In this document: one piece after another, positions 12,501-32,135 of the stretch | Layout: the number at the start of each line of letters is the position of its first letter | How positions within the stretch are numbered: position 1 is the first letter of the stretch | Assembly: GCA_019359615.1 (NCBI GenBank) | Contig: JAHHHA010000001.1 | Span: 62,001 to 126,000 of the forward strand | DNA length: 64,000 nucleotides | Origin: Cyanosarcina radialis HA8281-LM2 | GTDB taxonomy: Bacteria; Cyanobacteriota; Cyanobacteriia; Cyanobacteriales; CCAP-1448 | Reading direction: 5' to 3' | Notes under the pieces: model-generated | Database searches by the model: none | What the model was told of the DNA's origin: nothing | The model's input: the letters and a program-made list of their open reading frames with translations, nothing else | Translations under genes and position numbers: made by a program

Positions 12501-15500
12501 ATGCAAGAAAAACTACTTGAAGGATTTCGACTTTCTCCCCAGCAAAAGCATCTCTGGCTACTACAAAGTCAATTTGACGAACCACAGAGGCACAAAGAAC
12601 ATAAAGGGCAAGCAATGCCTTATCGAGTTCAGTTTGGAATTTTGATGGAAGGTAAGCTCGATATAAAAGCTTTGGAAATAGCTTTACAGAAAGCGATCGA
12701 TCGCCATGAAATCCTCAGAACTAAATTTGATTGTTTGCCAGGGATGACTATTCCCCTACAAGTTATAGATGAAAGCTACCAACTATCTATTGATGAATGC
12801 CATCTGGACGATGAAGAGGTAGAAATCGACTTGTTTTTAGAGAAAGTTAGAAGATCTATATTTTCTTCTGAATCGTGCTTGCAGGTAAACTTAGTTACTT
12901 TAGCTTCTAAAAAATACCTATTAATAATTAGCTTGTCTGCCTTAATGGCAGACAGGATATCTATTGAAATTCTGTTAAAAGAGATTGCCGATCTATATTG
13001 TCATATTTTAGAAGGCAAGGAAATAGATGAATCGCCCATGCAATATGCCGATATTGCTGAATGGCAAAACGAACTGTTAGCAAATCCCGATTCAGAATTG
13101 GGCAAGCAGTATTGGCAAAAACAAGATTTTAGTTATCTGCGTCAGTCGAGTTTGTGGTTTGAAGATAGTCAGAGCGATTGCTTGGATTTTCAACCTCGAT
13201 TTTTAACTTTGAAACTGGCTGGTAATGTTGCAGAAAAGATGCAAGCGATCGCCCACAAAAATTGCGTACATCGACCTGATGTTTTATTAGCAATTTGGCA
13301 AGTTCTATTATGGAAAATTATTCAACAGCCAAATCTAATTATTGCCACCGCTAGCGATGGTAGAAAATATGCCGAGTTAGAGCGATCGCTTGGACTTTTA
13401 ACTAAATATTTACCCTTACATTTTCAGTTAGAGAAAGATCTAACATTTACGGATGCGTTGCAACAAGCTAATCGCTTAATAACCGAAGCTAATGAATGGC
13501 AAGAATACTTTAATTGGGAAGAAATTATCGAGCCAGATTTACCAGCAGCAGATTATCCCATTGGTTTTGAGTATCAAAAAGTTGCAGATAAGTTCGATCT
13601 CGCCGGAATTTCTTTTTCTATTTATCAGCAATATGCTTGTAGTGAACGATTAAAGTTAAAACTAACTTGTCTCGAAAGTAGCGATCGTTTAATTGCCGAG
13701 TTCCATTACGATACTGGAGTATTTGCGGCTGAAGACATCGCTAACTTAGCCCAACAATTTGAAACTTTATTAGATAGTGCGATCGCCAATCCAGAAGTAG
13801 CGATCGGAGAGTTAGAAATATTGTCAGAAAGCGATCGCCATCGACTATTAGTTGAATTCAACCAAACTCAAGCCGATTATCCTCAAGATAAGTGCATTCA
13901 TCAGTTATTTGAAGAATGGGTAGAGCGATCGCCTAATAGTATTGCCGTTGTTTTTGAAAACGATCGACTTACTTATCAGGAACTCAACGATCGAAGCGAT
14001 CGATTAGCTAATTACCTACAACAATTAGGAGTTCGGGCAGAAACTCTAGTTGCTATTTGGATCGAACGTTCTCTAGATGCGATCGTCGGAATACTGGGTA
14101 TTCTCAAAGCTGGCGCGGCTTACTTACCGTTAGATCCTGCCATGCCAGCAGTGCGTCTCAATCTAATTCTAGAAGATTCCCAGCCAGCACTTTTATTAAC
14201 CCAACCAGATTTAGTTACTCAATTTAGCCAAAATACAACCCCAGTAATCTCTCTATCAGAAGTCGAAGATCGCGAATTTAGAAATCAACTCAAAACTCAA
14301 AACTCAACAATATCTGTGGGGGTGGGCGAAGCATTCGGTGAAAAATCTTTACTCGATCGCAATAAGTTATCGCCCGAATGCTTCGCCCCTACAACATTAA
14401 AAAATCTGGCTTATGTCATCTACACCTCTGGTTCGACTGGTGTACCGAAAGGGATTGCAGTAGAACATCGACAACTCATTAACTATCTCTATGGCATCCT
14501 GGAAAGATTAGCTCTGCCGCCTGGTTCCAGTTTCGCTACGGTTTCTACTTTTGCCGCTGATTTGGGCAATACAGCCATTTTTCCGGCTTTGTGTACTGGT
14601 GGCTGTCTGCATATCATCGATCGAGATACAGCGATGGATGCAGAGGCTTTGGCGGCTTATTGCGATTCCCATCCGATCGATTGTCTCAAAATCGTTCCCT
14701 CTCACCTAGCAGCACTATTAAATTCTCCATTTGGCAAATCGATTTTGCCCCGTCAGCGATTGGTATTGGGTGGTGAAGTGGCAACTTGGGATTTAATCGA
14801 TCGCGTGCGGCAATTGTCTGATGAATGTCAAATTATCAATCATTACGGGCCGACAGAGACAACGGTGGGAGTTCTCACCTATGCAGTAGCATCGCCCGAT
14901 CCTCGATCGACTACCGTTCCGATTGGCAAAGCGATCGCTAATACTCAAATCTACATCCTCAACGAATATCTTCAGCCCGTAGCGATCGGCGTACCTGGAG
15001 AAATCTACATCGGCGGCGCTAGTCTGGCGCGAGGCTACTGGCAAAAACTAGAATTGACAGCGGAAAAATTCATTCAAAATCCGTTTTTGGGGACAGAAAT
15101 TGTAGGGGCGCAAGGCCTTGCGCCCCTACAGGAGACATGGGGGAATTTACTTTATAAAACTGGAGATTTAGCCCGTTATCTTCCTGATGGCAATATCGAG
15201 TTTCTGGGGCGAATTGACAACCAAATCAAGATTCGAGGCTTTCGGATCGAGTTGGGAGAAATAGAGGCGGTGTTAGAACAGCATCCAGATGTAGTGCAGG
15301 CTGTAGTTACAGTCCGGGAAGACGTGCAGGGTGACTTCCAAGCCGGAGACAATCCAAAATCAGATCCCCCCCTACCCCCCCTTAAAAAGGGGGGGGGAAT
15401 CCAAAATCCAAAATCGAATGACAAGTGCTTGGTAGCTTACTTAATTCCCAGTCAAAAGCCAGCACCTAGTATTAGCGATCTGCGTAGTTTTTTAAACTCA

Positions 15501-15968
15501 AAACTGCCCGACTACATGATGCCATCGGTTTTCGTCATGCTAGAGGCTTTCCCTTTAACTCCTAACGGCAAAGTCGATCGATCGCAACTACCAGCACCAG
15601 ATCGAGTCCAAAAAACCTTTGTGGCTCCCCGTAACGATATCGAGCAAAAGATCGCCGGAATTTGGTCGGAAGTCCTCAGTCTCGATCGAGTAGGGATAGA
15701 CGATAACTTCTTCGATCTAGGAGGGCATTCCCTATCAGCCACCCAGATTGTTTCCCGACTGCGCCAAGCATTCCAGATCCAGTTACCCCTACGTTACTTG
15801 TTTGATTTTCCCACAGTAGCCGATTTGGGGGCGATCGTGGCCCAAAAGCTGGCAGAACAGACGGATAGCGAAGTCCTGGCGCAGATGCTAGCGGAACTAG
15901 AGGAACTACCGGAAGAAGAAATTAAGGAAGTTCTGGCACATCAAGGAGGAGGCAAAGGAAATGAGTAA
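12501..15968 (+). CDS. NRPS, degenerate C (interface-like)-A(Asp)-T
   Basis: 1155 residues. The N-terminal domain (about 1-430) has the condensation fold signature (RLSPQQKHLWLLQ, RHEILRTKF) but the HHxxxDG motif is replaced by SALMAD (Ser146-Asp151), so it cannot be a normal peptide-bond-forming C domain. The A domain (about 450-1010) has FAADLGNTAIF and NHYGPTETTVG. Its code read by eye is D-L-T-K-V-G-H-V-G, matching the Asp code. The T domain has LGGHSL near residue 1078. A degenerate C domain following a TauD-type hydroxylase matches the interface domain described for siderophore Asp beta-hydroxylases; the degenerate domain would dock the hydroxylase while the upstream C domain makes the bond. 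Five repeat-derived segments are in frame. The stop overlaps the next start by 8 bases. Confidence 0.93.
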   Translation: MQEKLLEGFRLSPQQKHLWLLQSQFDEPQRHKEHKGQAMPYRVQFGILMEGKLDIKALEIALQKAIDRHEILRTKFDCLPGMTIPLQVIDESYQLSIDECHLDDEEVEIDLFLEKVRRSIFSSESCLQVNLVTLASKKYLLIISLSALMADRISIEILLKEIADLYCHILEGKEIDESPMQYADIAEWQNELLANPDSELGKQYWQKQDFSYLRQSSLWFEDSQSDCLDFQPRFLTLKLAGNVAEKMQAIAHKNCVHRPDVLLAIWQVLLWKIIQQPNLIIATASDGRKYAELERSLGLLTKYLPLHFQLEKDLTFTDALQQANRLITEANEWQEYFNWEEIIEPDLPAADYPIGFEYQKVADKFDLAGISFSIYQQYACSERLKLKLTCLESSDRLIAEFHYDTGVFAAEDIANLAQQFETLLDSAIANPEVAIGELEILSESDRHRLLVEFNQTQADYPQDKCIHQLFEEWVERSPNSIAVVFENDRLTYQELNDRSDRLANYLQQLGVRAETLVAIWIERSLDAIVGILGILKAGAAYLPLDPAMPAVRLNLILEDSQPALLLTQPDLVTQFSQNTTPVISLSEVEDREFRNQLKTQNSTISVGVGEAFGEKSLLDRNKLSPECFAPTTLKNLAYVIYTSGSTGVPKGIAVEHRQLINYLYGILERLALPPGSSFATVSTFAADLGNTAIFPALCTGGCLHIIDRDTAMDAEALAAYCDSHPIDCLKIVPSHLAALLNSPFGKSILPRQRLVLGGEVATWDLIDRVRQLSDECQIINHYGPTETTVGVLTYAVASPDPRSTTVPIGKAIANTQIYILNEYLQPVAIGVPGEIYIGGASLARGYWQKLELTAEKFIQNPFLGTEIVGAQGLAPLQETWGNLLYKTGDLARYLPDGNIEFLGRIDNQIKIRGFRIELGEIEAVLEQHPDVVQAVVTVREDVQGDFQAGDNPKSDPPLPPLKKGGGIQNPKSNDKCLVAYLIPSQKPAPSISDLRSFLNSKLPDYMMPSVFVMLEAFPLTPNGKVDRSQLPAPDRVQKTFVAPRNDIEQKIAGIWSEVLSLDRVGIDDNFFDLGGHSLSATQIVSRLRQAFQIQLPLRYLFDFPTVADLGAIVAQKLAEQTDSEVLAQMLAELEELPEEEIKEVLAHQGGGKGNE
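12580..12608 (+). repeat. In-frame ACCACAGAGGCACAAAGA repeat in the interface domain
   Basis: The string ACCACAGAGGCACAAAGAAC resembles a common interspersed repeat. It is translated as a short charged loop (PQRHKEHKG) absent from the paralogous domain at 22099. Confidence 0.45.
14316..14392 (+). repeat. In-frame inverted repeat (GGGCGAAGCATTCGG / CCGAATGCTTCGCCC) before A3
   Basis: The arms GGGCGAAGCATTCGG and CCGAATGCTTCGCCC flank about 45 bases. It lies in the loop just before LAYVIYTSGSTG. Confidence 0.85.
15102..15129 (+). repeat. Perfect palindrome GTAGGGGCGCAAGG... in frame before A7
   Basis: A 28-base perfect palindrome with half-site GTAGGGGCGCAAGG. It sits just before YKTGDLARYLPDG; the Asp domain at 22099 carries a related, longer copy at the same site. 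Confidence 0.9.
15352..15416 (+). repeat. In-frame CCCCCCTTAAAAAGGGGG repeat between A8 and A9
   Basis: A TACCCCCCTTAAAAAGGGGG core is flanked on each side by AATCCAAAAT-type sequence. It is translated as Pro/Lys/Gly-rich sequence before LVAYL; the Gly A domain has a different repeat at the same position. Confidence 0.85.
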
Positions 15969-18900
15969 TTTCAGAGAACGGATCGCAGCACTTTCTCCTG
16001 AGAAACGCCAACTACTCGTGCAACAACTAGAGCGACAAAGGCAGAAGGTCGCGCCCACCCAAATTACACCTCAAAGTCGCGACTCCCAGGCTTTACCCTT
16101 ATCCTTCGGTCAGTTGCGGTTGTGGTTCCTCGATCGCCTGGAACCGGGGAACCCTTTTTATAACATTCCTGCGGCTGTCAGACTCAAAGGTAAGCTGAAT
16201 GTAGCGGCGCTGGAACGAAGCATCAACGAAATTATCCGCCGACACGAAGTTTTGCGGACTGCTTTTAAAAACACTGAATCCAGCCCTCACCCCCTTCCCC
16301 TCTCCCAAGCTTGGGAGAGGGGTGCCGGAGGCGGGGTGAGGGCTGGCAAAGTAGCTGACGGACAACCAATTCTAGCTATTACTCCCAGCTTGTCATTGAG
16401 CTTAACGGTGCTGGATTTACGCCAACTGCCTGAAAGCGATCGCGAATCAGAGGTTCGGCGATTGGCGACTGAGGAAGCAGAACGACCTTTTGACCTGAAA
16501 CAAGCACCGTTGCTGCGAGCCAGCTTGCTGCATCTAGAGGAATCGGAATACGTCTTGCTCTTCACCATGCACCACATCGTCTCTGATGGTTGGTCGATGG
16601 GAATTTTGGTGCGGGAACTGAGCCTGCTTTACGAAGCTTTCTCTAGCGATCGACCTTCCCCCTTGCCCGAACTCCCCATCCAATATGCAGACTTTGCCTG
16701 CTGGCAGCGCCAATGGCTTCAGGGAGAAGAGTTGAACGCCCAGATGAGTTACTGGAAACAGCAATTGGGCGGCAGCCTGCCCGTGTTAGAGTTGCCTACC
16801 GATCGACCTCGACCGGCCGTACAAACCTTTCCCGGTGCAGTGCAAACGTTGGTTTTACCCCAGGAGCTAACAGAGCAATTAACTCAGTTAAGCAAGCAGG
16901 AGGGAACCACTTTATTTATTACCCTGCTAGCAGCATTCAAAATCTTACTCTACCGCTACACTAGGCAAACAGATATCCTCGTAGGATCGCCAATTGCCAA
17001 CCGCGATCGCCCCGAAATCGAAGGGTTAATCGGTTTTTTTATCAACACCCTGGTACTGCGTACTAACTTAAGCAATCGTCCCAGCGTGCGGGAGCTACTC
17101 AGTCGAGTCAAAGAAGTAGCTTTAGAAGCTTACGATCGCCAAAATTTACCGTTTGAGAAGCTGGTAGAAGAGTTGCAGCCAGAGCGCAACTTGAGCCATA
17201 CGCCCCTGTTTCAGGTAATGTTTATCTTCCAGAGCGCCCAAAAGGAAGTTTTAGAGCTTTCAGGGCTGACTCTACAGCCTATAGAAGTCGATCCCACAAC
17301 GGCAAAATTCGATCTGACCCTCTCGATCGTCGATACCGAGGGAGAACTGACGGCAAATTTAGAGTACAACACAGATTTGTTCGATCGCAGCACGATTTCC
17401 AGGATGCTAGGTCATTTCCAAACCTTATTGTCAGGAATGGCGACTAATCCGCAGCAAAGGATCTCGGAGTTACCAATGTTAACCCAGTCAGAGCAACACC
17501 AGTTGCTAGTGGAGTGGAGCGGAAGGAGAGAGGGAGATGGGGAGATGGGGAGATGGGGAGATGGGGAGAATTATTCGTGTATCCATCAGTTGTTTGAACG
17601 ACAGGTGAAGAGGACACCAGAAGCGATCGCTCTAGTATTTGAAGACCAACAACTCACCTACCGAGAACTCAACGATCGCGCCGAGCGACTGTGCGATCGC
17701 TTGCAACAACTAGGTGTAGGGCCAGAGGTACTGGTAGGGATTTGCGTAGAACGCTCTTTAGAAATGGTAGTTGGACTTCTAGCCATTCTCAAAGCTGGCG
17801 GCGCTTACGTTCCATTAGATCCTGCCTATCCTCAAGAACGATTGGCCTTCATGCTGTCAGATTCTCAAGTGCCAATTTTACTCACCCAATCCCACTTACT
17901 CCCCACCCTACCAGAACACAACGCTCAAACTGTCTATCTCGATTCCAGTTGGGAAGAAGACGTAGGGGCGCAAAGCTTTGCGCCCCTACCAACCCAAAAC
18001 ACAACCAACCTGGCTTATGTAATCTACACCTCCGGCTCAACTGGCAAACCCAAAGGCGTGCAAATTTCCCACGGCGCTTTAGTTAACTTCTTAAACGCCA
18101 TGCGCCTAACGCTAGGTGTAACCGATAAAGATACCTTACTCTCAGTCACCACCTTATCTTTTGACATCGCCGCGTTAGAAATTTACCTACCTCTAATTGT
18201 CGGCGCTCGCCTAGTAGTAGTCAGCCGTGAAGTTGCCGCTGACGGAACTCAGTTGCTAGCGACCATGGCTAACTCCAGCGTTACGGTGATGCAAGCCACT
18301 CCTGCCACCTGGCAACTGCTTTTAACTGCGGGTTGGCAAGGTAGTGGGAAGCTGAAAATTCTCTGCGGCGGTGAGGCACTACATTACTCCCTCGCCCATC
18401 AATTGCTAGAACGGGGCAGCGAAGTCTGGAACCTATACGGCCCGACAGAAACCACTATCTGGTCGTCTGCCCACAAAGTAGAAACTCAAAAAAGTGTCGA
18501 TTCAGGATACAGCCTCGTCCCTATCGGTCGCCCCATTGCCAACACCCAGTTTTACGTTCTCGACCCCAACTTACAACCCGTACCAGTAGGAGTCTGGGGC
18601 GAACTCTACATCGGCGGTGCTGGGCTAGCCCGTGGTTATCTCGATCGACCGGAACTCACAGCCGAGAAGTTCGTCTCTAATCCCTTTAACCGCGATCGCA
18701 CTTCTCGGCTTTACAAGACTGGGGACGTAGTTTGCTATCGATCGAATGGCGCGATCGAGTATCAAGGGCGGCTCGATTATCAGGTCAAGGTGCGAGGTTT
18801 CCGCATCGAACTCGGAGAAATCGAGGCAGTTCTGAGCCAACATCCAGAGGTACTACAAGCTGTGGTGGCGGTGCGGGAGAACGAACCAGGTTCTCAGCCC

Positions 18901-21900
18901 TCACCCCGCCCTAGCGGGCACCCCTCTCCCAAGCTTGGGAGAGGGGACGGGGGTGAGGGCCAACCAGGTTTTGCTAACCGAATTTTGGATCGAAGCTTAG
19001 TCGCCTACCTAGTGCCGCAGCCAGATCGGGAACTCAACATTTCTCGGCTGCGCGACTTCCTCAAAGATAAGCTACCTCAGTACATGGTGCCGACCGCGTT
19101 TGTCCTGTTAGAGGCGCTACCCTTAACGCCCAACGGTAAAGTAGACCGCCGCGCCCTCCCAGCGCCCGCAGCTACTCGACCTGAGTTAGAAAAACCTTTG
19201 ACAGCACCTCGGACACCGATAGAAGAGGTACTAGCTACCATCTGGCTCAACATCTTGGGTTTAGAAGCCTTGGGGATCGACGACAACTTCTTTGAACTAG
19301 GCGGACATTCACTCCTCGCTACCCAGGTAGTTTCCCAAGTGCGATCGCTTTTTCAAGTCGAAATCCCTCTGCGCTGGTTGTTTGAGTCGCCGACGGTAGC
19401 CCAATTGAGCGATCGCCTTGCCAATCTAATTAGTGCTACCCCAGAACCCGCTACCTTACCCATTACTGGGGTTCCCCACCGGACAAATTTACCTCTGTCT
19501 TTTGCCCAACAACGGCTGTGGTTTTTAGACCAATTACAGCCAAATAACACAGCTTACAATATGCCTGTGGCGCTGCGTCTCGTCGGTAATTTGAACCTGG
19601 CAGCGTTAGAGCAAAGTTTAAACGAAATTATCCGCCGTCATGAGGTTTTAAGGACTAATTTCGCTGTTGTAGACGGGGAACCAGTACAGGTTATCGCTCA
19701 CCCTCACCCCGCCTGCGGCACCCCTCTCCCGTGGGAGAGGGGAAGGGGTGAGGGCAAACCAGGCTTCGCTAAGTCGATTTCGCATCAGATCCCCCCTACC
19801 CCCCTTAAACAGGGGGGAGAATCCAAAATCCAAAATCGACAGACTTTAAAATTACCAGCGATCGATCTGCAAATGTTACCGAAAGCAGAACGGGAAGCGA
19901 AAGCCTTAGATTTAGCCAACGCAGAAGCAAATTTACCGTTTAATTTAGCCCAAGATCGCTTAATTAGAGGTAAATTACTGAAATTGGGGGCAACCGAGCA
20001 TATTATCTTGCTGACGATGCACCACATTGTTTACGATGCTTGGTCGGAAGGAGTGTTGATTCGGGAAATAACCGCGCTCTACGAGGCATTTTCCGCCGGA
20101 AAACCCTCTCCTTTGCCAGAATTACCGATTCAGTATGCTGATTTCGCCTCTTGGCAGCGTCAATGGTTGCAGGGAGAGTTATTAGAGCGACTGCTATCTT
20201 ACTGGCAAAAACAGCTAGCGGGCGCGACTGGAGGGATAGATTTTAAATCTTGGCCAGTCGTCCAACGGTGCAGCGGCGTAGAAGAAGAAGGAAAAACATC
20301 TTTCTTACTGAACCCAGATTTAACAACAAAATTGCACGAACTCAGTCGCCAAGAAGGAGTCACCTTGTTTATGACTCTGCTGGCGCTACTGCAAACCTTG
20401 CTCTATCGTTACAGCGATCGCGAAGATATTGTAGTTGGAACTGACATCGCCAATCGCGATCGGGCGGAATTAGAACCTTTAATCGGGTTTTTCGTGAATT
20501 TATTGGTGATGCGTACCAGCTTTGCTGGCAATCCTAGTTTTCGGGAATTACTAGCGCGGGTGCGGGAAGTCGCTTTAGGAGCCTACACTCATCAAGATTT
20601 ACCCTTTGCCAAGTTAGTTGAAGTTCTGCAACCAGAAAGAAGTAGCAGTCATACACCTTTATTTGAGGTTTTATTTGTTTTCCAAAACACTCCAGATTCA
20701 ACTTTAAATTTAGGCGACTTGACTGTATCTTCTTTCAATGAAAATGCCAAGACAGGAAAATTCGATCTAGTTTTGTTTGCAACCGAAACATCTGAAGGGA
20801 TCGAAGGTAATTGGCAATACAACCCAGAAATATTTAATCCTAGTGCGATCGCCCAGATATCACAACATTTTGAAACTTTAGTAAATGATGCGATCGCCAA
20901 TCCCAATACCAGAATTAATTCTTTAGAAATCATGACCCAAGCTGAAAAAATCCAACAAACGCTGACTGAAGAACAAAGCGCCAAATCCAAATTTCAGAAA
21001 TTCAAATCGATTAAACCCAAAGCTGTCAATCTCCCTCAAGGCGAATTAGTTAAAACGGGTTATTTAGAAGTAGGAGAAACATTACCATTAGTCATTCAGC
21101 CTAATTTAACCGAATTTGATGTCGCTAACTGGGCAAAAAACAATCGATCGTTTATCGAAACCGAATTATACAAACACGGTGGGATTTTATTTCGAAGGTT
21201 TGAATTAAAATCTGTTACTGACTTTGAAAACTTTGCTGGAGCTATTTGTCCTCAGCTATTCGGCGAATACGGAGATTTACCCAGAGAAGGAGTTAGCGCC
21301 AAAGTTTATGGTTCTACACCATATCCTAGCGATCGAGCCATTTTATTTCACAATGAAAGTTCTCACTTAAATCGCTATCCGTTAAAGATTTGGTTTTTCT
21401 GCATCCAGCCAGCAGCCAAGGGCGGAGAAACGCCGATCGTCGATTGCCGTCAAGTGTATAAACTGTTGAATCCCAAATTGCGAGAAATATTTGCTCGCAA
21501 GCAGTTAATGTACGTCCGCAATTATATTGAAGGATTGGATGTAAGCTGGCAAGACTTCTTTCACACCAACGACAAAACAGTAGTAGAAGATCGTTGCCGT
21601 CAAGCCGGAATCGACTGGGAATGGGTTTCGGAAAATCACTTGCGAACTCGAACGATTCGACCCGCCATAATCCAACATCCTCAAACTGGAGAAACATCAT
21701 TTTTCAACCAACTACAGTTACATCACATCTCATGCTTAGAACCCAGCGTTCGATCGTCCTTACTCTCGGTGTTCGCCCCAGAAAATCTACCGCGTCACGT
21801 TTATTACGGTGATGGTTCGCCGATCGAAGACTCTGTAATTGAAGAAATTATGGCAGTTTATCAGCAGGCTACTCGCAGTTTCCCATGGCAACAAGGCGAC

Positions 21901-21999
21901 GTTTTAATGCTAGATAACATCCTATCTGCACACGGCAGAAATCCTTATGAAGGTTCGCGAAAGATTGTCGTTGCCATGGGCGAAATAACTCATAGCTAA
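15961..21999 (+). CDS. NRPS, C-A(Gly)-T-C fused to a TauD-type oxygenase
   Basis: 2012 residues; start supported by AGGAGGAGG upstream and an 8-base overlap with the preceding gene. Domains: C1 (about 40-510, HHIVSDGWS), A (about 540-1045, code by eye D-I-L-Q-L-G-L-I-W, a Gly code), T (about 1085-1155, LGGHSL), C2 (about 1177-1660, HHIVYDAWS) and a C-terminal Fe(II)/2-oxoglutarate oxygenase (about 1694-2012) with His1797-x-Glu1799 and His1991 in AHGRNPY. The fused oxygenase is paralogous to the free one at 11400. C2 plus oxygenase are followed by a degenerate C-A(Asp)-T-R protein, so the first Asp-module layout is repeated with the hydroxylase fused to the condensation protein. Several repeat elements are inserted in frame. 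Confidence 0.95.
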   Translation: MSNFRERIAALSPEKRQLLVQQLERQRQKVAPTQITPQSRDSQALPLSFGQLRLWFLDRLEPGNPFYNIPAAVRLKGKLNVAALERSINEIIRRHEVLRTAFKNTESSPHPLPLSQAWERGAGGGVRAGKVADGQPILAITPSLSLSLTVLDLRQLPESDRESEVRRLATEEAERPFDLKQAPLLRASLLHLEESEYVLLFTMHHIVSDGWSMGILVRELSLLYEAFSSDRPSPLPELPIQYADFACWQRQWLQGEELNAQMSYWKQQLGGSLPVLELPTDRPRPAVQTFPGAVQTLVLPQELTEQLTQLSKQEGTTLFITLLAAFKILLYRYTRQTDILVGSPIANRDRPEIEGLIGFFINTLVLRTNLSNRPSVRELLSRVKEVALEAYDRQNLPFEKLVEELQPERNLSHTPLFQVMFIFQSAQKEVLELSGLTLQPIEVDPTTAKFDLTLSIVDTEGELTANLEYNTDLFDRSTISRMLGHFQTLLSGMATNPQQRISELPMLTQSEQHQLLVEWSGRREGDGEMGRWGDGENYSCIHQLFERQVKRTPEAIALVFEDQQLTYRELNDRAERLCDRLQQLGVGPEVLVGICVERSLEMVVGLLAILKAGGAYVPLDPAYPQERLAFMLSDSQVPILLTQSHLLPTLPEHNAQTVYLDSSWEEDVGAQSFAPLPTQNTTNLAYVIYTSGSTGKPKGVQISHGALVNFLNAMRLTLGVTDKDTLLSVTTLSFDIAALEIYLPLIVGARLVVVSREVAADGTQLLATMANSSVTVMQATPATWQLLLTAGWQGSGKLKILCGGEALHYSLAHQLLERGSEVWNLYGPTETTIWSSAHKVETQKSVDSGYSLVPIGRPIANTQFYVLDPNLQPVPVGVWGELYIGGAGLARGYLDRPELTAEKFVSNPFNRDRTSRLYKTGDVVCYRSNGAIEYQGRLDYQVKVRGFRIELGEIEAVLSQHPEVLQAVVAVRENEPGSQPSPRPSGHPSPKLGRGDGGEGQPGFANRILDRSLVAYLVPQPDRELNISRLRDFLKDKLPQYMVPTAFVLLEALPLTPNGKVDRRALPAPAATRPELEKPLTAPRTPIEEVLATIWLNILGLEALGIDDNFFELGGHSLLATQVVSQVRSLFQVEIPLRWLFESPTVAQLSDRLANLISATPEPATLPITGVPHRTNLPLSFAQQRLWFLDQLQPNNTAYNMPVALRLVGNLNLAALEQSLNEIIRRHEVLRTNFAVVDGEPVQVIAHPHPACGTPLPWERGRGEGKPGFAKSISHQIPPTPLKQGGESKIQNRQTLKLPAIDLQMLPKAEREAKALDLANAEANLPFNLAQDRLIRGKLLKLGATEHIILLTMHHIVYDAWSEGVLIREITALYEAFSAGKPSPLPELPIQYADFASWQRQWLQGELLERLLSYWQKQLAGATGGIDFKSWPVVQRCSGVEEEGKTSFLLNPDLTTKLHELSRQEGVTLFMTLLALLQTLLYRYSDREDIVVGTDIANRDRAELEPLIGFFVNLLVMRTSFAGNPSFRELLARVREVALGAYTHQDLPFAKLVEVLQPERSSSHTPLFEVLFVFQNTPDSTLNLGDLTVSSFNENAKTGKFDLVLFATETSEGIEGNWQYNPEIFNPSAIAQISQHFETLVNDAIANPNTRINSLEIMTQAEKIQQTLTEEQSAKSKFQKFKSIKPKAVNLPQGELVKTGYLEVGETLPLVIQPNLTEFDVANWAKNNRSFIETELYKHGGILFRRFELKSVTDFENFAGAICPQLFGEYGDLPREGVSAKVYGSTPYPSDRAILFHNESSHLNRYPLKIWFFCIQPAAKGGETPIVDCRQVYKLLNPKLREIFARKQLMYVRNYIEGLDVSWQDFFHTNDKTVVEDRCRQAGIDWEWVSENHLRTRTIRPAIIQHPQTGETSFFNQLQLHHISCLEPSVRSSLLSVFAPENLPRHVYYGDGSPIEDSVIEEIMAVYQQATRSFPWQQGDVLMLDNILSAHGRNPYEGSRKIVVAMGEITHS
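16283..16343 (+). repeat. In-frame AAGCTT-centred palindromic repeat in C1
   Basis: Same family as 8524-8587 but in the opposite orientation, read in a different frame (PLPLSQAWERG). It lies between RTAFKN and DGQPILAI, a surface loop position of C domains. Confidence 0.85.
17532..17568 (+). repeat. GGGAGATG octamer repeat at the C-A junction
   Basis: Four complete GGGAGATG units and a partial fifth, translated as alternating Gly/Asp/Glu/Met/Arg/Trp between the C domain and the A domain start (CIHQLFERQV). Confidence 0.85.
17962..17989 (+). repeat. Perfect palindrome GTAGGGGCGCAAAG... in frame before A3 of the Gly domain
   Basis: A 28-base palindrome with half-site GTAGGGGCGCAAAG, translated as VGAQSFAPL, just ahead of LAYVIYTSGSTG. 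Confidence 0.9.
18897..18960 (+). repeat. In-frame AAGCTT-centred palindromic repeat between A8 and A9 of the Gly domain
   Basis: Same family and orientation as 8524-8587 but read in another frame (SPRPSGHPSPKLGRG). The element has no stop codon in the frames used, so it tolerates insertion in several ways. Confidence 0.85.
19697..19839 (+). repeat. Two adjacent in-frame repeats in C2
   Basis: A CCCTCACCCC...GGGGTGAGGGC element is followed 30 bases later by a CCCCCCTACCCCCCTT...AGGGGGG element with AATCCAAAAT flanks. Both are translated between DGEPVQVI and the next C-domain helix. Confidence 0.8.
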
Positions 22000-22098: not shown

Positions 22099-25000
22099 AT
22101 GCAAAGTTTAACTATTCAAGGTTTTCGACTATCACCACAACAAAAGCATTTGTGGTCGTTACAACAAGATAGCTGTGAATATCGCGCCCAATGCACGATT
22201 CAGATTAGTGGAAATTTAAATGTAGAAGTCCTAAAATTAGCATTACAAGAAATTGGCGCTCGCCATGAAATTCTTCGCACTAAATTCGAGCATCAACCGG
22301 GCATGAAGTTTCCACTTCAGGTAATTGGCGATCGTTGTAATCTTTCCTGGGAAGCAATCGATGTTTGCCCTCACCCTGGGGGCCTAGCGGACACCCCTCT
22401 CCCAAGCTTGGGAGAGGGGCAGGGGGTGAGGGCTGGCTTCAGCGTGTCCTTAGTAGTTTTTGGCAAAGACCAATATCTTTTAAATGTCGAACTGCCATCT
22501 ATGTATGCAGATAGTTACTCCCTGAAGAATTTATTTTTAGAAATCACTGAAACTTACAATGCTTGCCTCAATAATAAAAAATTAACTGATGAAGTATTCC
22601 AATACATTCAGTTTTCCGAATGGCAAAACGAATTACTACAAGATGATGATGCTGCCATCGGTCAAAATTACTGGCAAGGACCAAAATTTTCAGCTTCGCC
22701 AATTCTGCCTTTTGAAAAAAAAGCTACCGAAGATATCCAGTTCTCATCCGATGTTTATGGAATTAAACTTGAGACGCAATTAACTCAGAAAATTGCCGCT
22801 CTTGCCAATCGATGCCATAGTACGATCGCGGACTTATTATTTGCTTGTTGGCAAACACTGATTTATCGAATAGTAGGAAAATCAGAATTTGCGATCGCTA
22901 CTCCATTTAGCGGCAGAAAATATGAAGAATTAGATCGTTGCTTGGGATTGTTGGCGAAGTATTTACCTGTTGGCTGTGCTTTAGAAAATAATTTTAAAAT
23001 TAGCGAAGTTGTAGCACAACTTCGAGAAACTTTACAGCAACATGAGAAATGGCAAGAGTACGGTGATATCGTCGAGTCACCAATTAGCTTTGAGTTTGTA
23101 GAATTACCTGAAAACCGTTTAGCAGGTGGAGTGACATTTACCCTAGAAAAGTTGTATGCAGTCGGCGATCGCTTTAAAGTCAAACTCGCTTGCATCCAAC
23201 AAGAAGAATCCCTGACAACAGAATGGCACTACGATCGCCAGTTAATCGATCGAGGTTGGATCGAGTACCTAGCCGAACAATTTCAAGCTTTATTGGTTAG
23301 TGTTGTTAATAACCCAGAAGCGACAATTGGGCAATTAGATATTTTAAGCGATCGCCAACTTCAACAATTACTTATTGAGTTCAATCAAACTTCAGTTAAT
23401 TACCCGCAAAACAAGTGCGTGCATCAACTATTTGAAAACCAAGTAGAGCGATCTCCTGATGCAATTGCGATCGTATTTGGAGATAAGCAATTAACCTATC
23501 GCGAAGTTAACACCCGCGCCGACTTGTTAGCTGGCTACCTGCAACAATTAGGAGTAGGAAAAGAAGTCATCGTCGGGATTTACTTAGAGCGATCGCCAGA
23601 AGTTATCATTGCTTTACTTGCCATTCTCAAAGCTGGCGGCGCATATCTTCCCATCGATCCAGCTTTACCACCAGCAGGCTTAATCTGGCGCTTGCAAGAT
23701 GCAAAAGCACCCGTACTCATTACCCAACAGTCTCTAGCCGCCAATCTTCCTAAATTAACAACTCAAATCGTTTATTTAGAGAACTTACCTGCAAACCCCG
23801 CATATGGTAGGGGCGCACTAGCGAAGCCATGCCCGCCAGGGCTATTGCTTTGCGCCCCTACTTCCCTCAACAATCTGGCTTACGTCATCTACACCTCTGG
23901 TTCGACTGGGAAACCGAAGGGAGTGGCGGTGGAACACCAACAGATTCTCAACTACTTGCATGGAATTCTAGATCGATCGAACTTGCCAGCGGGGGCTAGT
24001 TACGCCACGGTTTCCACCTTTGCGGCTGACTTGGGTAACACGGCAATTTTCCCAGCTTTGTGTACGGGTGGCTGTCTCCACATCATTTCTCAGGAAATAG
24101 CTTCAGATCCGGTAGCTTTAGCCGATTATTGCGATCGCTACCCGATCGATTGTCTCAAAATTGTCCCCTCACACCTAGCTACTCTCCTTGCCAATTCCTC
24201 ATCTCCTGCAATTCTTCCGCGTCAGCGCCTCATTTTAGGAGGCGAAGTCGCTAACTGGGAATTAATCGCACAGATTCAAGCTTTATCCCCCGATTGTCAA
24301 ATTATCAATCACTACGGTCCCACAGAAACTACTGTTGGCGTACTCACTTACCCAGTCAAAAACCGCCCTGATTGCGCAGCTACAGTTCCCCTCGGTTCTC
24401 CTTTACCTAACACCCAAGTTTACATCCTCGATCGCTACTTAAAACCCGTTCCCATCGGCGTAACCGGAGAATTATATATCGGCGGATCGCTTGTCAGTCG
24501 GGGATATCTCAACCAACCGGAATTAACCGCAGAAAAGTTTATTCGGAACCCGTTTGAGAAAATTGTAGGGGCGCAATCCTTCGACAAGCTCAGGAACAGC
24601 TTTGCGCCCCTACAGAAGGCGGTAGGCAATTTAATTTACAAAACTGGTGATTTAGCGCGTTACCTTCCCGATGGCAATATCGAGTTTCTCGGAAGAATGG
24701 ATTCCCAAGTAAAAATTCGCGGTTTTCGAGTGGAATTAGGAGAAATTGAAACCGTACTAAGTCAACATCCTCAAGTACAGCAAGTCGCTGTTTCCATCTG
24801 GGAAGAAAAACCAGGCGATCGCCGCTTAGTTGCTTATATAGGTCCTCGTCAACAAAAAGCACCTACATTAAGCGATATTCGGAGTTTTTTGCGAGAGAAA
24901 CTACCTGAATATACAATCCCCTCAGCCTTAATCGTACTTAAAGCTTTACCCCTCACTTCCAATGGCAAAATCGATCGTCGATCGTTACCAATACCTAGTA

Positions 25001-26508
25001 GCGATCGCAGCGAAGCAGAAGCAATTTATATCGCCCCGCGCACCCCAACAGAAGCAAAAATGGCAGCAATTTGGGCAAAAATTCTCGGTTTAGAACGAGT
25101 GGGGATTCACGACAATTTCTTTGAACTAGGAGGACATTCTCTGTTGCTAACTCAGCTACTCGTACAAGTGCGAGAAGCTTTTGATACCGACTTATCTTTA
25201 AACACCCTATTTACATCTCCAACTGTAGCCAGCTTAGTCGATAAAATTGATGTTAGCAGCCAAACAGAATCCCTCGATCGATTTATTCCTAATTGGGATA
25301 TTGAAACCATCCTCGATCGCACAATTAACCCTTTCTCCCCATCTCCCCATCTCCCCATCTCCCCATCTCCCCATCTCCCCATCTCCCCATCTCTCCTCCT
25401 CACTGGTGCTACAGGTTTTTTGGGTGCTTTCTTACTGTACGAACTACTCCAACAAACAGACAGTAATATTTATTGCTTAGTTCGTGCTTCTAACGTTGAA
25501 TTAGCTAAAGCAAAACTGCAAGACGTTTTGGAGGCTTACTTGCTGTGGGATGAAGCTTTCAGTTCTAGAATTATTCCAGTTTTAGGCGATCTCTCGAAAT
25601 CGCTTTTAGGTCTTTCTTCAGATGAATTTGCTGCTCTAGCAGATCGAATCGATGCCATTTACCATAACGGCGCTTGGGTACATCATAGTTCCGATTACTA
25701 CACGCTCAAACCTGCTAATGTTTTAGGAACTCAGGAAATTCTGAGACTAGCTTGTCAAACTAAAACTAAGCCATTGCATTTCATTTCTACTATCAGTGTT
25801 TTTGATAGCGATCGCAGCGACGAACTAACTTTAATTAAAGAAACAGATAGTTTAGGCGATCGCCCTCCCAATTCTAACGGTTACGTTCAGAGTAAATGGG
25901 TAGCCGAGAAGTTAGTAAATACCGCTCGCGAGCGGGGATTGCCAGTCTCTATTTATCGTCCAGGACGCATATCGGGTCACAGTCAAACCGGAGTATTTAA
26001 TCCCAACGATCTATTGTACAGATTAATAATTGGCTGCATCCAACTAGGGAGTATTGCTAAAGATGATGAAAGTTTAGAGCTAGCTCCAGTAGATTATGTA
26101 AGTCGAGCGATCGTCCATTTATCAAAGCAGCCAGAATCTTTAGGAAAAGCCTTTCATTTAGTTAACCATCATCCGCTATTATCGAGTTCGATTTTCAAAT
26201 CTATTCGCTCTTTTGGTTATTCAATTAAAGAGGTTTCTGACGAACAATGGCACTCAGAATTAATCGAAATAGCCCAACATTCTCCCGAACATCCTCTCTA
26301 CCCATTAGTACCATTTTTCTCTATTGGTGAAGGAGAAGCAGCATCTAACTCAGGAGCGATCGCCTTCGATTGTCAAAACGCCATTGCAGGATTAACAGGT
26401 ACTTCGATCGTTTGTCCACCCATAGACGAACAAATCTTGCATACCTACTTTTCTTACTTAATTCAAAGTGGCGTTCTCACTCCATCAGCATATCGCTCGA
26501 ACCTCTAG
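22099..26508 (+). CDS. NRPS termination module, degenerate C (interface-like)-A(Asp)-T-thioester reductase
   Basis: 1469 residues. The N-terminal condensation-like domain (about 1-420) has PSMYAD (133-138) in place of HHxxxD. The A domain (about 440-960) has the code D-L-T-K-I-G-H-V-G by eye, again Asp, and closely resembles the A domain at 12501. The T domain has LGGHSL near 1012. The reductase domain (about 1095-1469) has the NAD(P)H motif TGATGFLG and the Y-x3-K pair in YVQSKWVAEKL. No thioesterase domain is present, so the chain should be released by reduction to an aldehyde or alcohol. An octamer repeat makes up the T-R linker and two palindromes sit in A-domain loops. The downstream aminotransferase could aminate the aldehyde. 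Confidence 0.95.
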   Translation: MQSLTIQGFRLSPQQKHLWSLQQDSCEYRAQCTIQISGNLNVEVLKLALQEIGARHEILRTKFEHQPGMKFPLQVIGDRCNLSWEAIDVCPHPGGLADTPLPSLGEGQGVRAGFSVSLVVFGKDQYLLNVELPSMYADSYSLKNLFLEITETYNACLNNKKLTDEVFQYIQFSEWQNELLQDDDAAIGQNYWQGPKFSASPILPFEKKATEDIQFSSDVYGIKLETQLTQKIAALANRCHSTIADLLFACWQTLIYRIVGKSEFAIATPFSGRKYEELDRCLGLLAKYLPVGCALENNFKISEVVAQLRETLQQHEKWQEYGDIVESPISFEFVELPENRLAGGVTFTLEKLYAVGDRFKVKLACIQQEESLTTEWHYDRQLIDRGWIEYLAEQFQALLVSVVNNPEATIGQLDILSDRQLQQLLIEFNQTSVNYPQNKCVHQLFENQVERSPDAIAIVFGDKQLTYREVNTRADLLAGYLQQLGVGKEVIVGIYLERSPEVIIALLAILKAGGAYLPIDPALPPAGLIWRLQDAKAPVLITQQSLAANLPKLTTQIVYLENLPANPAYGRGALAKPCPPGLLLCAPTSLNNLAYVIYTSGSTGKPKGVAVEHQQILNYLHGILDRSNLPAGASYATVSTFAADLGNTAIFPALCTGGCLHIISQEIASDPVALADYCDRYPIDCLKIVPSHLATLLANSSSPAILPRQRLILGGEVANWELIAQIQALSPDCQIINHYGPTETTVGVLTYPVKNRPDCAATVPLGSPLPNTQVYILDRYLKPVPIGVTGELYIGGSLVSRGYLNQPELTAEKFIRNPFEKIVGAQSFDKLRNSFAPLQKAVGNLIYKTGDLARYLPDGNIEFLGRMDSQVKIRGFRVELGEIETVLSQHPQVQQVAVSIWEEKPGDRRLVAYIGPRQQKAPTLSDIRSFLREKLPEYTIPSALIVLKALPLTSNGKIDRRSLPIPSSDRSEAEAIYIAPRTPTEAKMAAIWAKILGLERVGIHDNFFELGGHSLLLTQLLVQVREAFDTDLSLNTLFTSPTVASLVDKIDVSSQTESLDRFIPNWDIETILDRTINPFSPSPHLPISPSPHLPISPSLLLTGATGFLGAFLLYELLQQTDSNIYCLVRASNVELAKAKLQDVLEAYLLWDEAFSSRIIPVLGDLSKSLLGLSSDEFAALADRIDAIYHNGAWVHHSSDYYTLKPANVLGTQEILRLACQTKTKPLHFISTISVFDSDRSDELTLIKETDSLGDRPPNSNGYVQSKWVAEKLVNTARERGLPVSIYRPGRISGHSQTGVFNPNDLLYRLIIGCIQLGSIAKDDESLELAPVDYVSRAIVHLSKQPESLGKAFHLVNHHPLLSSSIFKSIRSFGYSIKEVSDEQWHSELIEIAQHSPEHPLYPLVPFFSIGEGEAASNSGAIAFDCQNAIAGLTGTSIVCPPIDEQILHTYFSYLIQSGVLTPSAYRSNL
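22367..22433 (+). repeat. In-frame AAGCTT-centred palindromic repeat in the interface domain
   Basis: Arms GCCCTCACC and GGTGAGGGC around CTCTCCCAAGCTTGGGAGAG, inserted shortly before the degenerate PSMYAD motif. Confidence 0.85.
23807..23861 (+). repeat. In-frame GTAGGGGCGC...GCGCCCCTAC inverted repeat before A3
   Basis: The arms GTAGGGGCGCA and TGCGCCCCTAC flank about 33 bases. Fourth A domain with a repeat at the pre-A3 loop. Confidence 0.85.
24565..24613 (+). repeat. In-frame GTAGGGGCGCAA...TTTGCGCCCCTAC inverted repeat before A7
   Basis: Same site as the 15102 palindrome in the other Asp domain, but with extra internal sequence (CTTCGACAAGCTCAGG), which suggests a second repeat nested in the loop. 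Confidence 0.85.
25335..25390 (+). repeat. Seven CTCCCCAT octamers forming the T-R linker
   Basis: Seven perfect 8-base units, translated as SPSPHLPI-type repeats between the T domain and the reductase. Loss or gain of one or two units would frameshift the reductase off the protein. Confidence 0.95.
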
Positions 26509-26600
26509 CCAAAGCCGATAACTCATCAATTATATCTGCGTTTATCTGTTTTCATCTGCGTTATATATTCCAAACCACAAATCACACCAAAAATGTAATT
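26509..26600 (+). repeat. Cluster spacer with ATCTGCGTT units, junction 5
   Basis: CGATAACTCATCAATTATATCTGCG followed by further TCTG units. It has the same layout as the spacer at 22039. Confidence 0.55.
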
Positions 26601-28046
26601 ATGCTCGAAACCAAAGCAGGAAATCTGAGCGAGAGTGCTCCGCACACGCTAGTTGCATCCGAACGCGATCGCCAATCTGAATATTTAGCTCAGTCGATCG
26701 CACGTCATACAGAAAAAACCAAAATCTCAAAACAGATCGCTCAGAAATATCGTCCAGTTTTAGCTGACAAGAGAACCCTAGTAGATTTTCTTCTTCCGTT
26801 TAAAGAAATTTACTATCCCATAGTCACTAAACGCTCTTTTGGTGCCAAAATTTGGGATGTAGACGGGAACGAATATATAGATCTAATTATGGGTTTTGGA
26901 GTCAATCTTTTCGGTCACAATCCTATCTGGATTCGACAGGTTTTACAAGAGCAACTTGAAACTGGCATAGAACTAGGTCTGCAACCAGAACTTGTTGGCG
27001 AAGTTGCCCAAATGATTTGTGACTTAACTGGGATGGAGAGGGTAACTTTTACTAACACGGGTACCGAAGCAGTAATGACAGCCATCCGTTTAGCGAGAGC
27101 AGTTACAAATCGCCAGAAAATTGCTATTTTTACAGATTCATATCACGGTCATTTCGATGGCATTCTCGGACAATTAGAAAAGAGCGATCGCTCCTGGAAA
27201 ACTATACCAACTACTATAGGTATTTCACCTAATTACGTAGCAGATCTGGTAATTTTAGATTATGGCAATTTTGAATCATTAGAAATCGTCAAAAAGTACA
27301 AACACGAACTCGCTGCTGTCTTAGTCGAACCAGTTCAAAGTCGCCGAATCGATCTACAACCCAAAGAGTTTTTACAACAATTACGGCAACTGACTAAAGA
27401 ATTAGATATTGCCTTAATCTTCGATGAATTAGTTACAGGTTTCCGCATTCATCCTGGGGGCGCACAAGCTTGGTTTGGAGTCGAAGCCGACATCGCCACC
27501 TATGGCAAAATCCTTGGCGGTGGAATGCCGATCGCTGTGATTGCTGGGAAAGCCGCTTACATGGATAAAATAGACGGTGGTGTGTGGAATTATGGCGATG
27601 ATTCTTTCCCCAGTTCCGAAAAGATATTTTTTGCTGGTACTTTCTGCAAACATCCCTTAGCGATCGCTGCTGCTCATACTATATTGCAACATTTCAAAGA
27701 GCGAGGCTCTACCGTTCAAGAAGAATTAAATCAACGTACAACTCAGTTCGTGCAAACATTAAATACTTACTTTGAATCGCAGGAGTTGCCCATTCAATTA
27801 GCAAATTTTGGTTCGATTTTTGGACCCGCATCCGTTTCAATAGCAGAAGATGAGAAATTTTTAGAAGAAGAATCGGCTATTAATGGCTTCGACTTGTTGT
27901 ACTATCACCTTTTAAATCGAGGCATTATGTTGCGAGGCGATCGAGGATTTTTATCTACAGCGCATACAGATGAAGATCTCGATCGCATAATTTCAGCCGT
28001 GCAAGATAGCATTAACGAACTAATTGAAGGAGGGTTTTTTAGTTAG
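26601..28046 (+). CDS. Class III PLP-dependent aminotransferase of the NRPS/PKS-associated type
   Basis: 481 residues from the ATG at 26601. The frame is open further upstream, but that part overlaps the reductase gene and spacer repeats. It resembles glutamate-1-semialdehyde-aminotransferase-like AMT proteins of natural-product clusters: FTNTGTEAVMTAIRLAR near residue 150, DSYHGHFDG, IFDELVTGFR and the PLP Lys303 in TYGKILGGG. All key residues look intact. It directly follows a reductase-ended NRPS. In myxochelin biosynthesis a related enzyme (MxcL) aminates the aldehyde released by the reductase, so conversion of the terminal aldehyde to an amine is the favoured role. An alternative is action on an earlier keto intermediate. 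No clear Shine-Dalgarno is seen. Confidence 0.9.
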   Translation: MLETKAGNLSESAPHTLVASERDRQSEYLAQSIARHTEKTKISKQIAQKYRPVLADKRTLVDFLLPFKEIYYPIVTKRSFGAKIWDVDGNEYIDLIMGFGVNLFGHNPIWIRQVLQEQLETGIELGLQPELVGEVAQMICDLTGMERVTFTNTGTEAVMTAIRLARAVTNRQKIAIFTDSYHGHFDGILGQLEKSDRSWKTIPTTIGISPNYVADLVILDYGNFESLEIVKKYKHELAAVLVEPVQSRRIDLQPKEFLQQLRQLTKELDIALIFDELVTGFRIHPGGAQAWFGVEADIATYGKILGGGMPIAVIAGKAAYMDKIDGGVWNYGDDSFPSSEKIFFAGTFCKHPLAIAAAHTILQHFKERGSTVQEELNQRTTQFVQTLNTYFESQELPIQLANFGSIFGPASVSIAEDEKFLEEESAINGFDLLYYHLLNRGIMLRGDRGFLSTAHTDEDLDRIISAVQDSINELIEGGFFS

Positions 28047-28198: not shown

Positions 28199-28444
28199 AT
28201 GGATTTCAAAGAAACAGAAGATCGAACGATCTATAAAGTCGTAATCAACCACGAAGAGCAATATTCTATCTGGCTTGCCGAACGAAAAAATCCTCTGGGA
28301 TGGCGCGATGTAGGTAAAAGTGGATCGCGATCGGAATGTTTGGAATATATCAAAGAAGTTTGGACTGATATGAGGCCGTTAAGTCTACGTCAACAAATGG
28401 GAAGATCCGCCGTTCGTACCGATCGAGCGAGCCTTACTAGTTAA
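28199..28444 (+). CDS. MbtH-like protein
   Basis: 81 residues with the family signature: [27 protein letters not shown] and [11 protein letters not shown]. The ATG is preceded by a good Shine-Dalgarno (CTAGGAGACAAAA). MbtH-like proteins bind A domains and help their folding and activity. It is co-directional with the NRPS genes and only 21 bases ahead of the thioesterase, so the two are probably co-transcribed. Confidence 0.96.
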
Positions 28445-28465: not shown

Positions 28466-29218
28466 ATGCAAACGAACCTAATTACCCATCCCCAACCCAA
28501 TCTTCAGGCAAAGTTGCGACTATTCTGCTTTCCTTATGCAGGTGGAAGTTCTTTCAGCTTTCGCGGCTGGTCGGATAATCTACCTGAAACCGTGGAATTA
28601 TGCCCTATAGAACTTCCAGGACGGGGAACCCAGATGAAATCAGCCCCGCTGACGCAGCTACAACCTCTAGTTGAGACGATCGCGTCTCACTTACTGCCAC
28701 ACTTAGATCGACCCTTTGCCTTTTTCGGTCACAGTTTAGGAGGAACGATCGCTTTTGAGACAGTTCGGTTACTCCACAGGCAATATGGCTTCAATCCAGT
28801 TTACCTGTTCGTTTCTGGTTGTCGCGCTCCTCAAATTCCTGCTAAAACAGCCCCCATTCATGACTTGCCAGAACCCGAATTCATAGAAGAACTCCGCCGT
28901 CTGAATGGAACTCCTGAAGCCGTATTCCAAAACCCCGAACTGATGGAAATGTTGATGCCGATTTTGAGAACTGATTTTGCCGTCATGGAAACCTATGCTT
29001 ACGTTCCCGAACCGATGCTAAATTGCCCCATTGCGGCTTTTGGTGGCTGGCAAGATTTAGAAGTCAGTCAGGGAGATTTAGCCCCATGGCAAGAACAGAC
29101 GCTCGCTTCTTTTTCCCTAGAGATGTTTCCTGGCGACCACTTTTTTCTCCACACAGATCGATCGGCACTTTTAACCAGCATTTCTAGTAAATTAATCGCA
29201 GCGATCGCACGAAATTAA
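28466..29218 (+). CDS. Type II (editing) thioesterase
   Basis: 250 residues, alpha/beta hydrolase of the type II thioesterase family: FCFPYAGGSS near the N terminus, nucleophile Ser90 in GHSLGG, and the catalytic His225 in GDHFFLH. Such enzymes clear wrongly primed or stalled carrier proteins in NRPS/PKS lines. It is the last gene of the cluster; a hairpin terminator lies 240 bases downstream. The chain-release enzyme is the reductase, so this TE is unlikely to be the release enzyme. Confidence 0.95.
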   Translation: MQTNLITHPQPNLQAKLRLFCFPYAGGSSFSFRGWSDNLPETVELCPIELPGRGTQMKSAPLTQLQPLVETIASHLLPHLDRPFAFFGHSLGGTIAFETVRLLHRQYGFNPVYLFVSGCRAPQIPAKTAPIHDLPEPEFIEELRRLNGTPEAVFQNPELMEMLMPILRTDFAVMETYAYVPEPMLNCPIAAFGGWQDLEVSQGDLAPWQEQTLASFSLEMFPGDHFFLHTDRSALLTSISSKLIAAIARN

Positions 29219-32108: not shown

Positions 32109-32135
32109 TAAGTAATAAGTAATAAGTCCCAGCAG
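32100..32135 (+). repeat. TAATAAGT short tandem repeat
   Basis: Four AGTAATAAGT-type units straddle the stop codon of the kinase gene. Confidence 0.7.

Follow-up and report, generated by a model that had tools for sequence, protein, structure and literature searches.

In myxochelin B biosynthesis, as described in two papers, a nonribosomal peptide synthetase (NRPS) ends in a reductase domain (R; protein MxcG), and MxcL, a class III aminotransferase (AMT) similar to glutamate-1-semialdehyde aminomutase (GSAM), is held to turn the aldehyde into an amine (PMC3870968, PMC3547906). TamH of the tambjamine pathway is a natural transaminase-thioester reductase fusion whose coupled reaction converts fatty acids to amines in vitro (PMC9594044). 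In addition, a model for anachelin names Red, MT and AmT (PMC4247773), and Dmaq biosynthesis is said to have been established for the fabrubactins (PMC12971057). Cyanochelin B is presented with Asp modules, an Asp beta-hydroxylase, a terminal R domain and a product ending in ethanolamine (PMC12628792). In this study, we analysed a stretch of 64,000 nucleotides from Cyanosarcina radialis HA8281-LM2 (GCA_019359615.1, contig JAHHHA010000001.1, positions 62,001 to 126,000), called the window below, in which an NRPS assembly line ends in an R domain and the next gene encodes a free-standing AMT. Judged from its sequence and that of its relatives, this assembly line quite likely releases its peptide reductively and then caps it with an amine. 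For myxochelin B, TamH and anachelin, release by an R domain together with an AMT is already known or has been proposed; what would be new here is the beta-hydroxyaspartyl end and, in more general terms, an exchangeable slot behind R.

The open reading frame w22099-26508 (w marks positions in the window) codes for 1469 aa and has Pfam matches to Condensation, AMP-binding, PP-binding and NAD_binding_4. The NCBIfam model TIGR01746 ("thioester reductase domain") matched its residues 1099-1459 above the cut-off (Table 1), and the closest solved relative of this R domain by sequence was MxaA (4u7w, E 8.7e-97). The next open reading frame on the same strand begins with an ATG at w26601 after a gap of 92 bases, and both genes are intact. 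It encodes a 481-aa protein that matched PF00202 (Aminotran_3, 182.6 bits), and the lysine that binds pyridoxal phosphate (PLP), Lys303, was placed by the motif YGKILGGG. Both gene assignments made in an earlier note on this DNA, a line ending in an NAD(P)H thioester reductase and a complete class III AMT directly behind it, were upheld by these results. The closest solved relative of the AMT was the AMT domain of the mycosubtilin synthase MycA (6kfm, 450.5 bits), and the best GSAM scored 191.3 bits. An identity as HemL, the GSAM proper, was dropped (TIGR00713, 288.7 bits versus a cut-off of 527.3), and the genome's own HemL lies at C45 (598.9 bits). The nearest named relatives of the AMT (L043-L051) were cyanobacterial, and the AMT of G376, from the same order as the window's genome, had the same sequence as a Desmonostoc record. 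The window resembles TamH in that an acyl thioester would be reduced and the aldehyde then transaminated; however, TamH acts on a fatty acyl substrate and has fused domains.

The window AMT served as the query for its relatives, which came from the best 80 of 585 confirmed places and from 386 sampled cyanobacterial genomes with at most four candidates scored per genome, and the counts therefore refer to relatives of this AMT and not to all AMTs. A relative at E 1e-60 or better was present in 38 of the 386 genomes. Free-standing copies (about 50% identity or more) occurred in 21 genomes, and R was directly upstream in every one of the 21. The remaining 17 positive genomes held embedded copies only, as judged from frame length (12 genomes), or weak GSAM-like matches (5 genomes). 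Among the fetched relatives, R was found at most 2.6 kb upstream of 32 of the 38 free-standing copies versus none of the 79 copies embedded in polyketide synthases (PKS) or NRPS, although for those embedded copies that were read with flanks of 1.5 kb only this distance was visible. For this count, matches of fewer than 330 aligned residues were excluded, and L014-L029 were exchanged for wider reads of the same places (L122-L137); the R-AMT loci L182-L186 were found later and are outside it. With duplicates removed, the numbers were 31 of 37 free-standing copies and 78 embedded copies. The other six free-standing copies included four with a thioesterase (TE) and two with neither R nor TE within 2.6 kb (L071, with a TE further up, and L055).

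The result of phylogenetic analysis showed that the 37 free-standing AMTs formed one clade, set apart from the PKS-embedded AMTs, in a large tree that 43 of the 78 embedded AMTs had entered (98 in the Shimodaira-Hasegawa-like approximate likelihood ratio test, SH-aLRT). Two rows had been removed as duplicates. In a smaller tree with four embedded rows, the clade had 99/97 (bootstrap/SH-aLRT). Free and embedded copies were one change apart on the large tree. The branch between them is independent of rooting; since the root was placed with a distant outgroup, the reading of the free AMT as the derived form depends on this choice. The AMTs of GSAM type and of the mxc loci of two myxobacterial genomes (L148, L149; from their place, presumably MxcL) fell outside the clade. 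The mxc-locus enzymes grouped with GSAM and were 25-26% identical to the window AMT, and a kinship with them was dropped. The parallel to myxochelin B drawn in the earlier note is sound for the way of working, an R-ended NRPS with a class III AMT in both cases, but it does not extend to the descent of the enzymes, and each of the two AMT lineages probably came to this role on its own. In addition, the terminal residue is Lys in myxochelin B and, going by the code, Asp in the window.

R domains related to that of the window were also found without an AMT. These loci (L166-L179) were hand-picked, mostly from the top of the R search with further R matches of the own genome added, and are a non-random set. 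Where the module before R was Asp-terminated with a TauD oxygenase just upstream, an aldo/keto reductase (PF00248, as in all cases below) stood behind R in L166, L167 and L168, and neither finisher was present in L169, L170 and L171 (the next gene in L170 encodes a thioesterase). Behind an Orn-type module, the AMT was found in L130 and L134. L181 (Nostoc sp. NIES-3756), likewise with an Orn-type module, has an aldo/keto reductase at this point, followed by MbtH, a thioesterase and a gene named FetB. A tree of 50 R domains (34 with AMT, 4 with aldo/keto reductase and 12 with neither; the L043 row was left out as short) placed both kinds together in three groups: L127 and L054 (AMT) with L166 (100/100), L044 and L125 (AMT) with L167 and L168 (99/96), and L130 and L134 (AMT) with L181 (100/97). 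The supported branches require the aldo/keto reductase label to have been gained or lost at least three times, and over the whole tree the finisher label was clustered (8 changes versus a shuffled mean of 14.8). Aldo/keto reductases turn aldehydes into alcohols, and aminotransferases turn them into amines. Because the two interchange behind similar R domains and both act on aldehydes, the simplest account would be that R sets free an aldehyde and that the gene behind it decides between alcohol and amine. In the cyanochelin B cluster, whose R lacks a partner of this kind, the product is published with ethanolamine, an alcohol, at its end. Taken with the constant pairing and the single clade, these alternatives mean that the order suggested in the earlier note, reductive release and then transamination, is well supported by comparison. 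No member of the aldo/keto reductase family was found in the window's genome at E 1e-80. As a separate observation, the spacing between the terminal adenylation (A) domain and R was extended to 647-789 residues in L043, L044, L046, L125, L167, L168 and L175, compared with about 210 otherwise, and the stretch gave a weak match to a condensation (C) domain in several of these loci, perhaps an extra domain before the reductase.

The R-AMT pair was associated with various terminal A-domain codes. There were eight loci with Asp codes (including the window), eight with a His-like code (DSALIAEVW), two with Orn-like, two with Lys-like (L124, L182), two with Val and one with Thr codes. Nine further loci had the code DAPTLGAVN, each with a methyltransferase match beside the AMT. 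The pair is thus no isolated case. On the AMT tree, the terminal code needed 8 changes over 29 labelled rows, and all nine groups gave 13 changes versus a shuffled mean of 27.3; such clustering could come from block inheritance of the cluster end. A cassette of R, methyltransferase, AMT, MbtH and two small proteins was found in Gloeocapsa PCC 7428 and on two Agrobacterium/Allorhizobium plasmids (L183, L184, L185); it looks like the route to Dmaq modelled for anachelin, and these clusters would make Dmaq. Their AMTs are 46-51% identical to that of the window, and R and AMT are in the same order. However, no match to an S-adenosylmethionine methyltransferase, present in L183, L184 and L185, was found near R and AMT in the window. 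The pair of small siderophore proteins is also absent there, MbtH and a thioesterase following the AMT, and the terminal code is DLTKIGHVG in the window versus DAPTLGAVN in L183 and L184.

Several observations weigh against reductive release followed by amination. To our knowledge, no product of the window cluster is known. By analogy with cyanochelin B, an R domain can yield an alcohol without a partner. The free-standing AMT family is kin to the PKS-embedded AMTs, and by the thresholds used the two are told apart at a single alignment column (N107), so that the sequence gives no proof of an aldehyde substrate; the search for an active-site residue that would distinguish aldehyde from beta-keto substrates yielded this column alone, which decides nothing. 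Furthermore, the line of the window itself has a PKS module with ketosynthase (KS), acyltransferase (AT), methyltransferase (MT) and acyl carrier protein (ACP) and no detectable ketoreductase (KR), and therefore a beta-keto group would remain. Five free-standing AMTs (L045, L060, L071, L079, L120) stand behind TE-ended lines with no R adjoining, and a second AMT match lies within the line at all five. The AMT at L055:10001-11365 (Fischerella sp. PCC 9431) belongs to the R-linked clade and has no NRPS genes near it over the 21 kb read; it is a second, unlinked copy, and the same genome has another AMT behind R. The aldo/keto reductase family had six members in the 386 genomes, three behind R and three elsewhere. 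Finally, the adjacency of R and AMT and their shared phylogeny may partly reflect block inheritance of the 3' end of the cluster. For reference, the stretches that hold these five AMTs, which belong to the same clade, and the TE-ended PKS modules ahead of them are at about 577-11506 in L045, about 7600-11450 in L060, L079 and L120, and about 1-11506 in L071.

Some of these points would suit another carbonyl group. The AMT could act in trans on the beta-ketoacyl thioester of the PKS module without KR (C21 about 47.3-51.6 kb) and give an in-chain beta-amino acid as in MycA-type systems, with R alone producing a terminal alcohol or aldehyde. That MycA is the nearest solved relative and of the same kinship group, that the free-standing AMTs are related to PKS-embedded ones, that the window line has a module with KS, AT, MT and ACP and no KR, and that the active-site columns fail to separate the two substrate classes are all in keeping with this explanation. 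However, the MycA domain is embedded in a PKS/NRPS, whereas the window AMT is free-standing and behind R. To look beyond the window, six other R-AMT clusters (G203, G334, G300, G308, G074 and G062) were read over about 49-59 kb round the R-AMT end. Within these reads, no KS match was found in G203, G334 and G300 (one weak AT match in G300 lay about 27 kb ahead of its first NRPS-type match), and the PKS modules of G308, G074 and G062 had a KR match. R and AMT were kept in all six clusters, and an evident beta-ketoacyl intermediate was present in none. The closest parallel in layout was G203, with TauD, C'-A(Asp), C-A(Gly), C-TauD, C'-A(Asp), R and AMT, and no PKS. In view of these clusters, of the position of the free AMT behind R in all 21 genomes holding one, and of the aldo/keto reductase that replaces it in relatives, action on the beta-keto group is unlikely. 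The refuting case named in the earlier note, an AMT acting on an upstream fatty acyl chain, read here as the acyl or polyketide part, keeps the KR-less module of the window in its favour, but it meets no evident substrate in the three ketosynthase-free relatives. G334 also has a second class III aminotransferase (L156:19038 to the start of L126; a frame of about 456 aa, 24% identical, of diaminobutyrate type by eye). Its weak AMT match was considered as an embedded domain and rejected, the protein being separate and distant.

It is also conceivable that R reduces twice, leaving a terminal amino alcohol, and that one of the modules receives a free precursor, such as a diamino acid, made by the AMT. 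In keeping with this, the R of cyanochelin B has no adjoining AMT and the product ends in an alcohol, MxaA is a four-electron reductase, and the AMT of L055 is away from NRPS genes. However, a precursor enzyme would have no need to follow R after terminal codes as different as Asp, His-like, Orn-like, Lys-like, Val and Thr. In addition, the second class III aminotransferase of G334 could serve precursors, and in relatives the position behind R is occupied by an aldo/keto reductase. We consider this explanation very improbable.

If reductive release and amine capping operate in the window, the last module would load Asp, and a TauD oxygenase would beta-hydroxylate the carrier-bound Asp. The R domain with NAD(P)H would then convert the peptidyl beta-hydroxyaspartyl thioester to a free aldehyde, and the PLP aminotransferase from the next gene would turn this aldehyde into a primary amine ahead of any reduction to an alcohol. 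The end group would be an N3-acylated 3,4-diamino-2-hydroxybutanoate with CH2NH2 in place of the C-terminal carboxyl. The alpha-hydroxycarboxylate would stay and could bind metal, and the vicinal diamine would have one nitrogen in an amide. We infer the hydroxylation of the last Asp, the aldehyde as the AMT substrate, the structure of the end group and its metal binding. The vicinal-diamine end that the earlier note derived from a beta-hydroxy-aspartate aldehyde follows from the Asp code and the hydroxylase, provided that both have been read correctly. The alpha-hydroxycarboxylate of beta-hydroxyaspartate, untouched by the release chemistry, is the likely metal ligand; with regard to the "rare chelating end" of the earlier note, any part of the new amine in chelation is conjecture. 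On paper, a pyrrolidinone ring could close: the amine would form and attack the free carboxyl to give 4-amino-3-hydroxy-pyrrolidin-2-one, for which only geometry speaks, the CH2NH2 being placed for a five-membered ring with the side-chain carboxyl. However, no ring-closing type of gene was recognised between the AMT and the thioesterase, and closure would cost one metal ligand. This sub-case, whose chance is partly contained in that of amine capping itself, appears quite improbable.

Cyanochelin B and the window share Asp modules, an Asp hydroxylase and a terminal R domain, and the window has the cyanochelin-like feature of two Asp-type codes with two TauD domains. In the 13 kb read of the cyanochelin B cluster (AP017310), R has no AMT beside it, and the last module of this line is for Gly. 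In contrast to cyanochelin B, the window line has no match to a fatty acyl-AMP ligase at its start and no adjoining transporter set. No A-like match was found before the first NRPS of the line, which as found begins with KS-AT-KR-ACP, and a genome-wide search for the ligase was not made. The genome has 18 matches to TonB-type receptors (PF00593). The cluster contains none of them, and the closest one on its contig is at C21:188419, about 97 kb downstream. Since no uptake genes are beside the cluster, we regard its production of a siderophore or metallophore, as read from the genes, as likely only.

The cluster is located in contig C21 of a 6.5 Mb genome and starts 5' of the window with a major facilitator superfamily (MFS) gene on the opposite strand. 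It is followed by the PKS modules KS-AT-KR-ACP and KS-AT-MT-ACP, by a four-gene set (3-hydroxyacyl-CoA dehydrogenase, ACP, acyl-CoA dehydrogenase and one protein without a Pfam match, presumably FkbH-like), and by a 2755-aa NRPS that extends into the window. No loading domain was seen at the start of the line. L009:5318-13125 (C21 about 47.3-55.1 kb) holds the KR-less module and, adjoining it, the four-gene set, which is of hydroxy/methoxymalonyl type. A second set of this kind (3-hydroxyacyl-CoA dehydrogenase, acyl-CoA dehydrogenase and FkbH-like protein), 64-72% identical, is present in the same genome at G000:C50 about 119-127 kb (L173), where it adjoins KS, AT and R matches and then an 880-aa open reading frame and an MFS gene. 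Within the window, the order is PKS, C-A-T-C (T, thiolation domain), free TauD, C'-A-T, C-A-T-C-TauD, C'-A-T-R, aminotransferase, MbtH and thioesterase (Table 1).

Table 1. Genes and domains of the assembly line in the window, with positions counted from its first letter.
Feature	Position	Strand	Evidence
PKS module of this assembly line, KS-AT-KR-ACP	1581..6542	+	Translation; KS, AT and KR placed, ACP by eye
NRPS C-A-T-C, A with Thr-type code DFWNIGMVH	6690..11390	+	Domain matches and code alignment
Free-standing TauD/2-oxoglutarate oxygenase, likely Asp beta-hydroxylase (presumed substrate)	11400..12410	+	PF02668, 169.3 bits
NRPS C'-A-T, A with Asp-type code DLTKVGHVG	12501..15968	+	Code by alignment; C' without HHxxxDG by eye
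NRPS C-A-T-C with C-terminal TauD oxygenase domain, A with Gly-type code DILQLGLIW	15961..21999	+	Domains and code alignment
Terminal NRPS C'-A-T-R, A with Asp-type code DLTKIGHVG	22099..26508	+	Pfam, NCBIfam and code alignment
NAD(P)H thioester reductase (R) domain	25393..26475	+	TIGR01746, 357.6 bits (cut-off 213.35); MxaA nearest solved relative
Free-standing class III aminotransferase (AMT), PLP Lys303 (codon 27507-27509)	26601..28046	+	PF00202, motif and length
MbtH-like protein	28199..28444	+	PF03621, 76.8 bits
Thioesterase, type II as judged from place and size	28466..29218	+	PF00975, 172.4 bits

The A-domain codes were obtained by alignment and are given with the amino acid that each code stands for. 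An early by-eye reading of the Asp A domains as a type lacking Asp235 was wrong, and the alignment gave ordinary Asp-type codes. The C' domains at 12501-13800 and 22099-23400, which precede both Asp A domains, were without HHxxxDG by eye, and we take them to resemble the non-catalytic interface domains that pair with beta-hydroxylases. The C-terminal TauD domain of the Gly-type NRPS is 48% identical to the free-standing TauD. Just downstream of the cluster (30474-33523), there are genes for a protein kinase and then a peptidase M50/TPR protein.

In the literature searched (titles and abstract openings among the matches listed, with subscription journals mostly outside), neither R-AMT release from a beta-hydroxyaspartyl module nor an alternative between AMT and aldo/keto reductase was found. 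Taking all parts together, we lean somewhat towards the following picture. Many cyanobacterial metallophore synthetases would have an exchangeable finishing slot behind their terminal R, filled by an AMT to give an amine, by an AMT plus methyltransferase to give an N-methylated amine, by an aldo/keto reductase to give an alcohol, or by none of these. The AMT finisher would have arisen once from PKS-embedded AMTs, becoming free-standing and taking up peptide aldehydes as substrates independently of the myxochelin enzyme, and in the window it would yield a siderophore end of 3,4-diamino-2-hydroxybutanoate for which we found no precedent.

The slot offers a testable rule, by which the C-terminus of uncharacterised cyanobacterial peptides would be read from the one gene after R. 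A terminal amine would alter the charge, and perhaps the uptake, of beta-hydroxyaspartate siderophores and would provide a handle for coupling. In addition, R domains that resemble each other and are naturally followed by either an AMT or an aldo/keto reductase offer ready precedents for the engineering of chain release. Furthermore, the clade of free-standing AMTs may show how an in-line domain turns into a finisher acting in trans.

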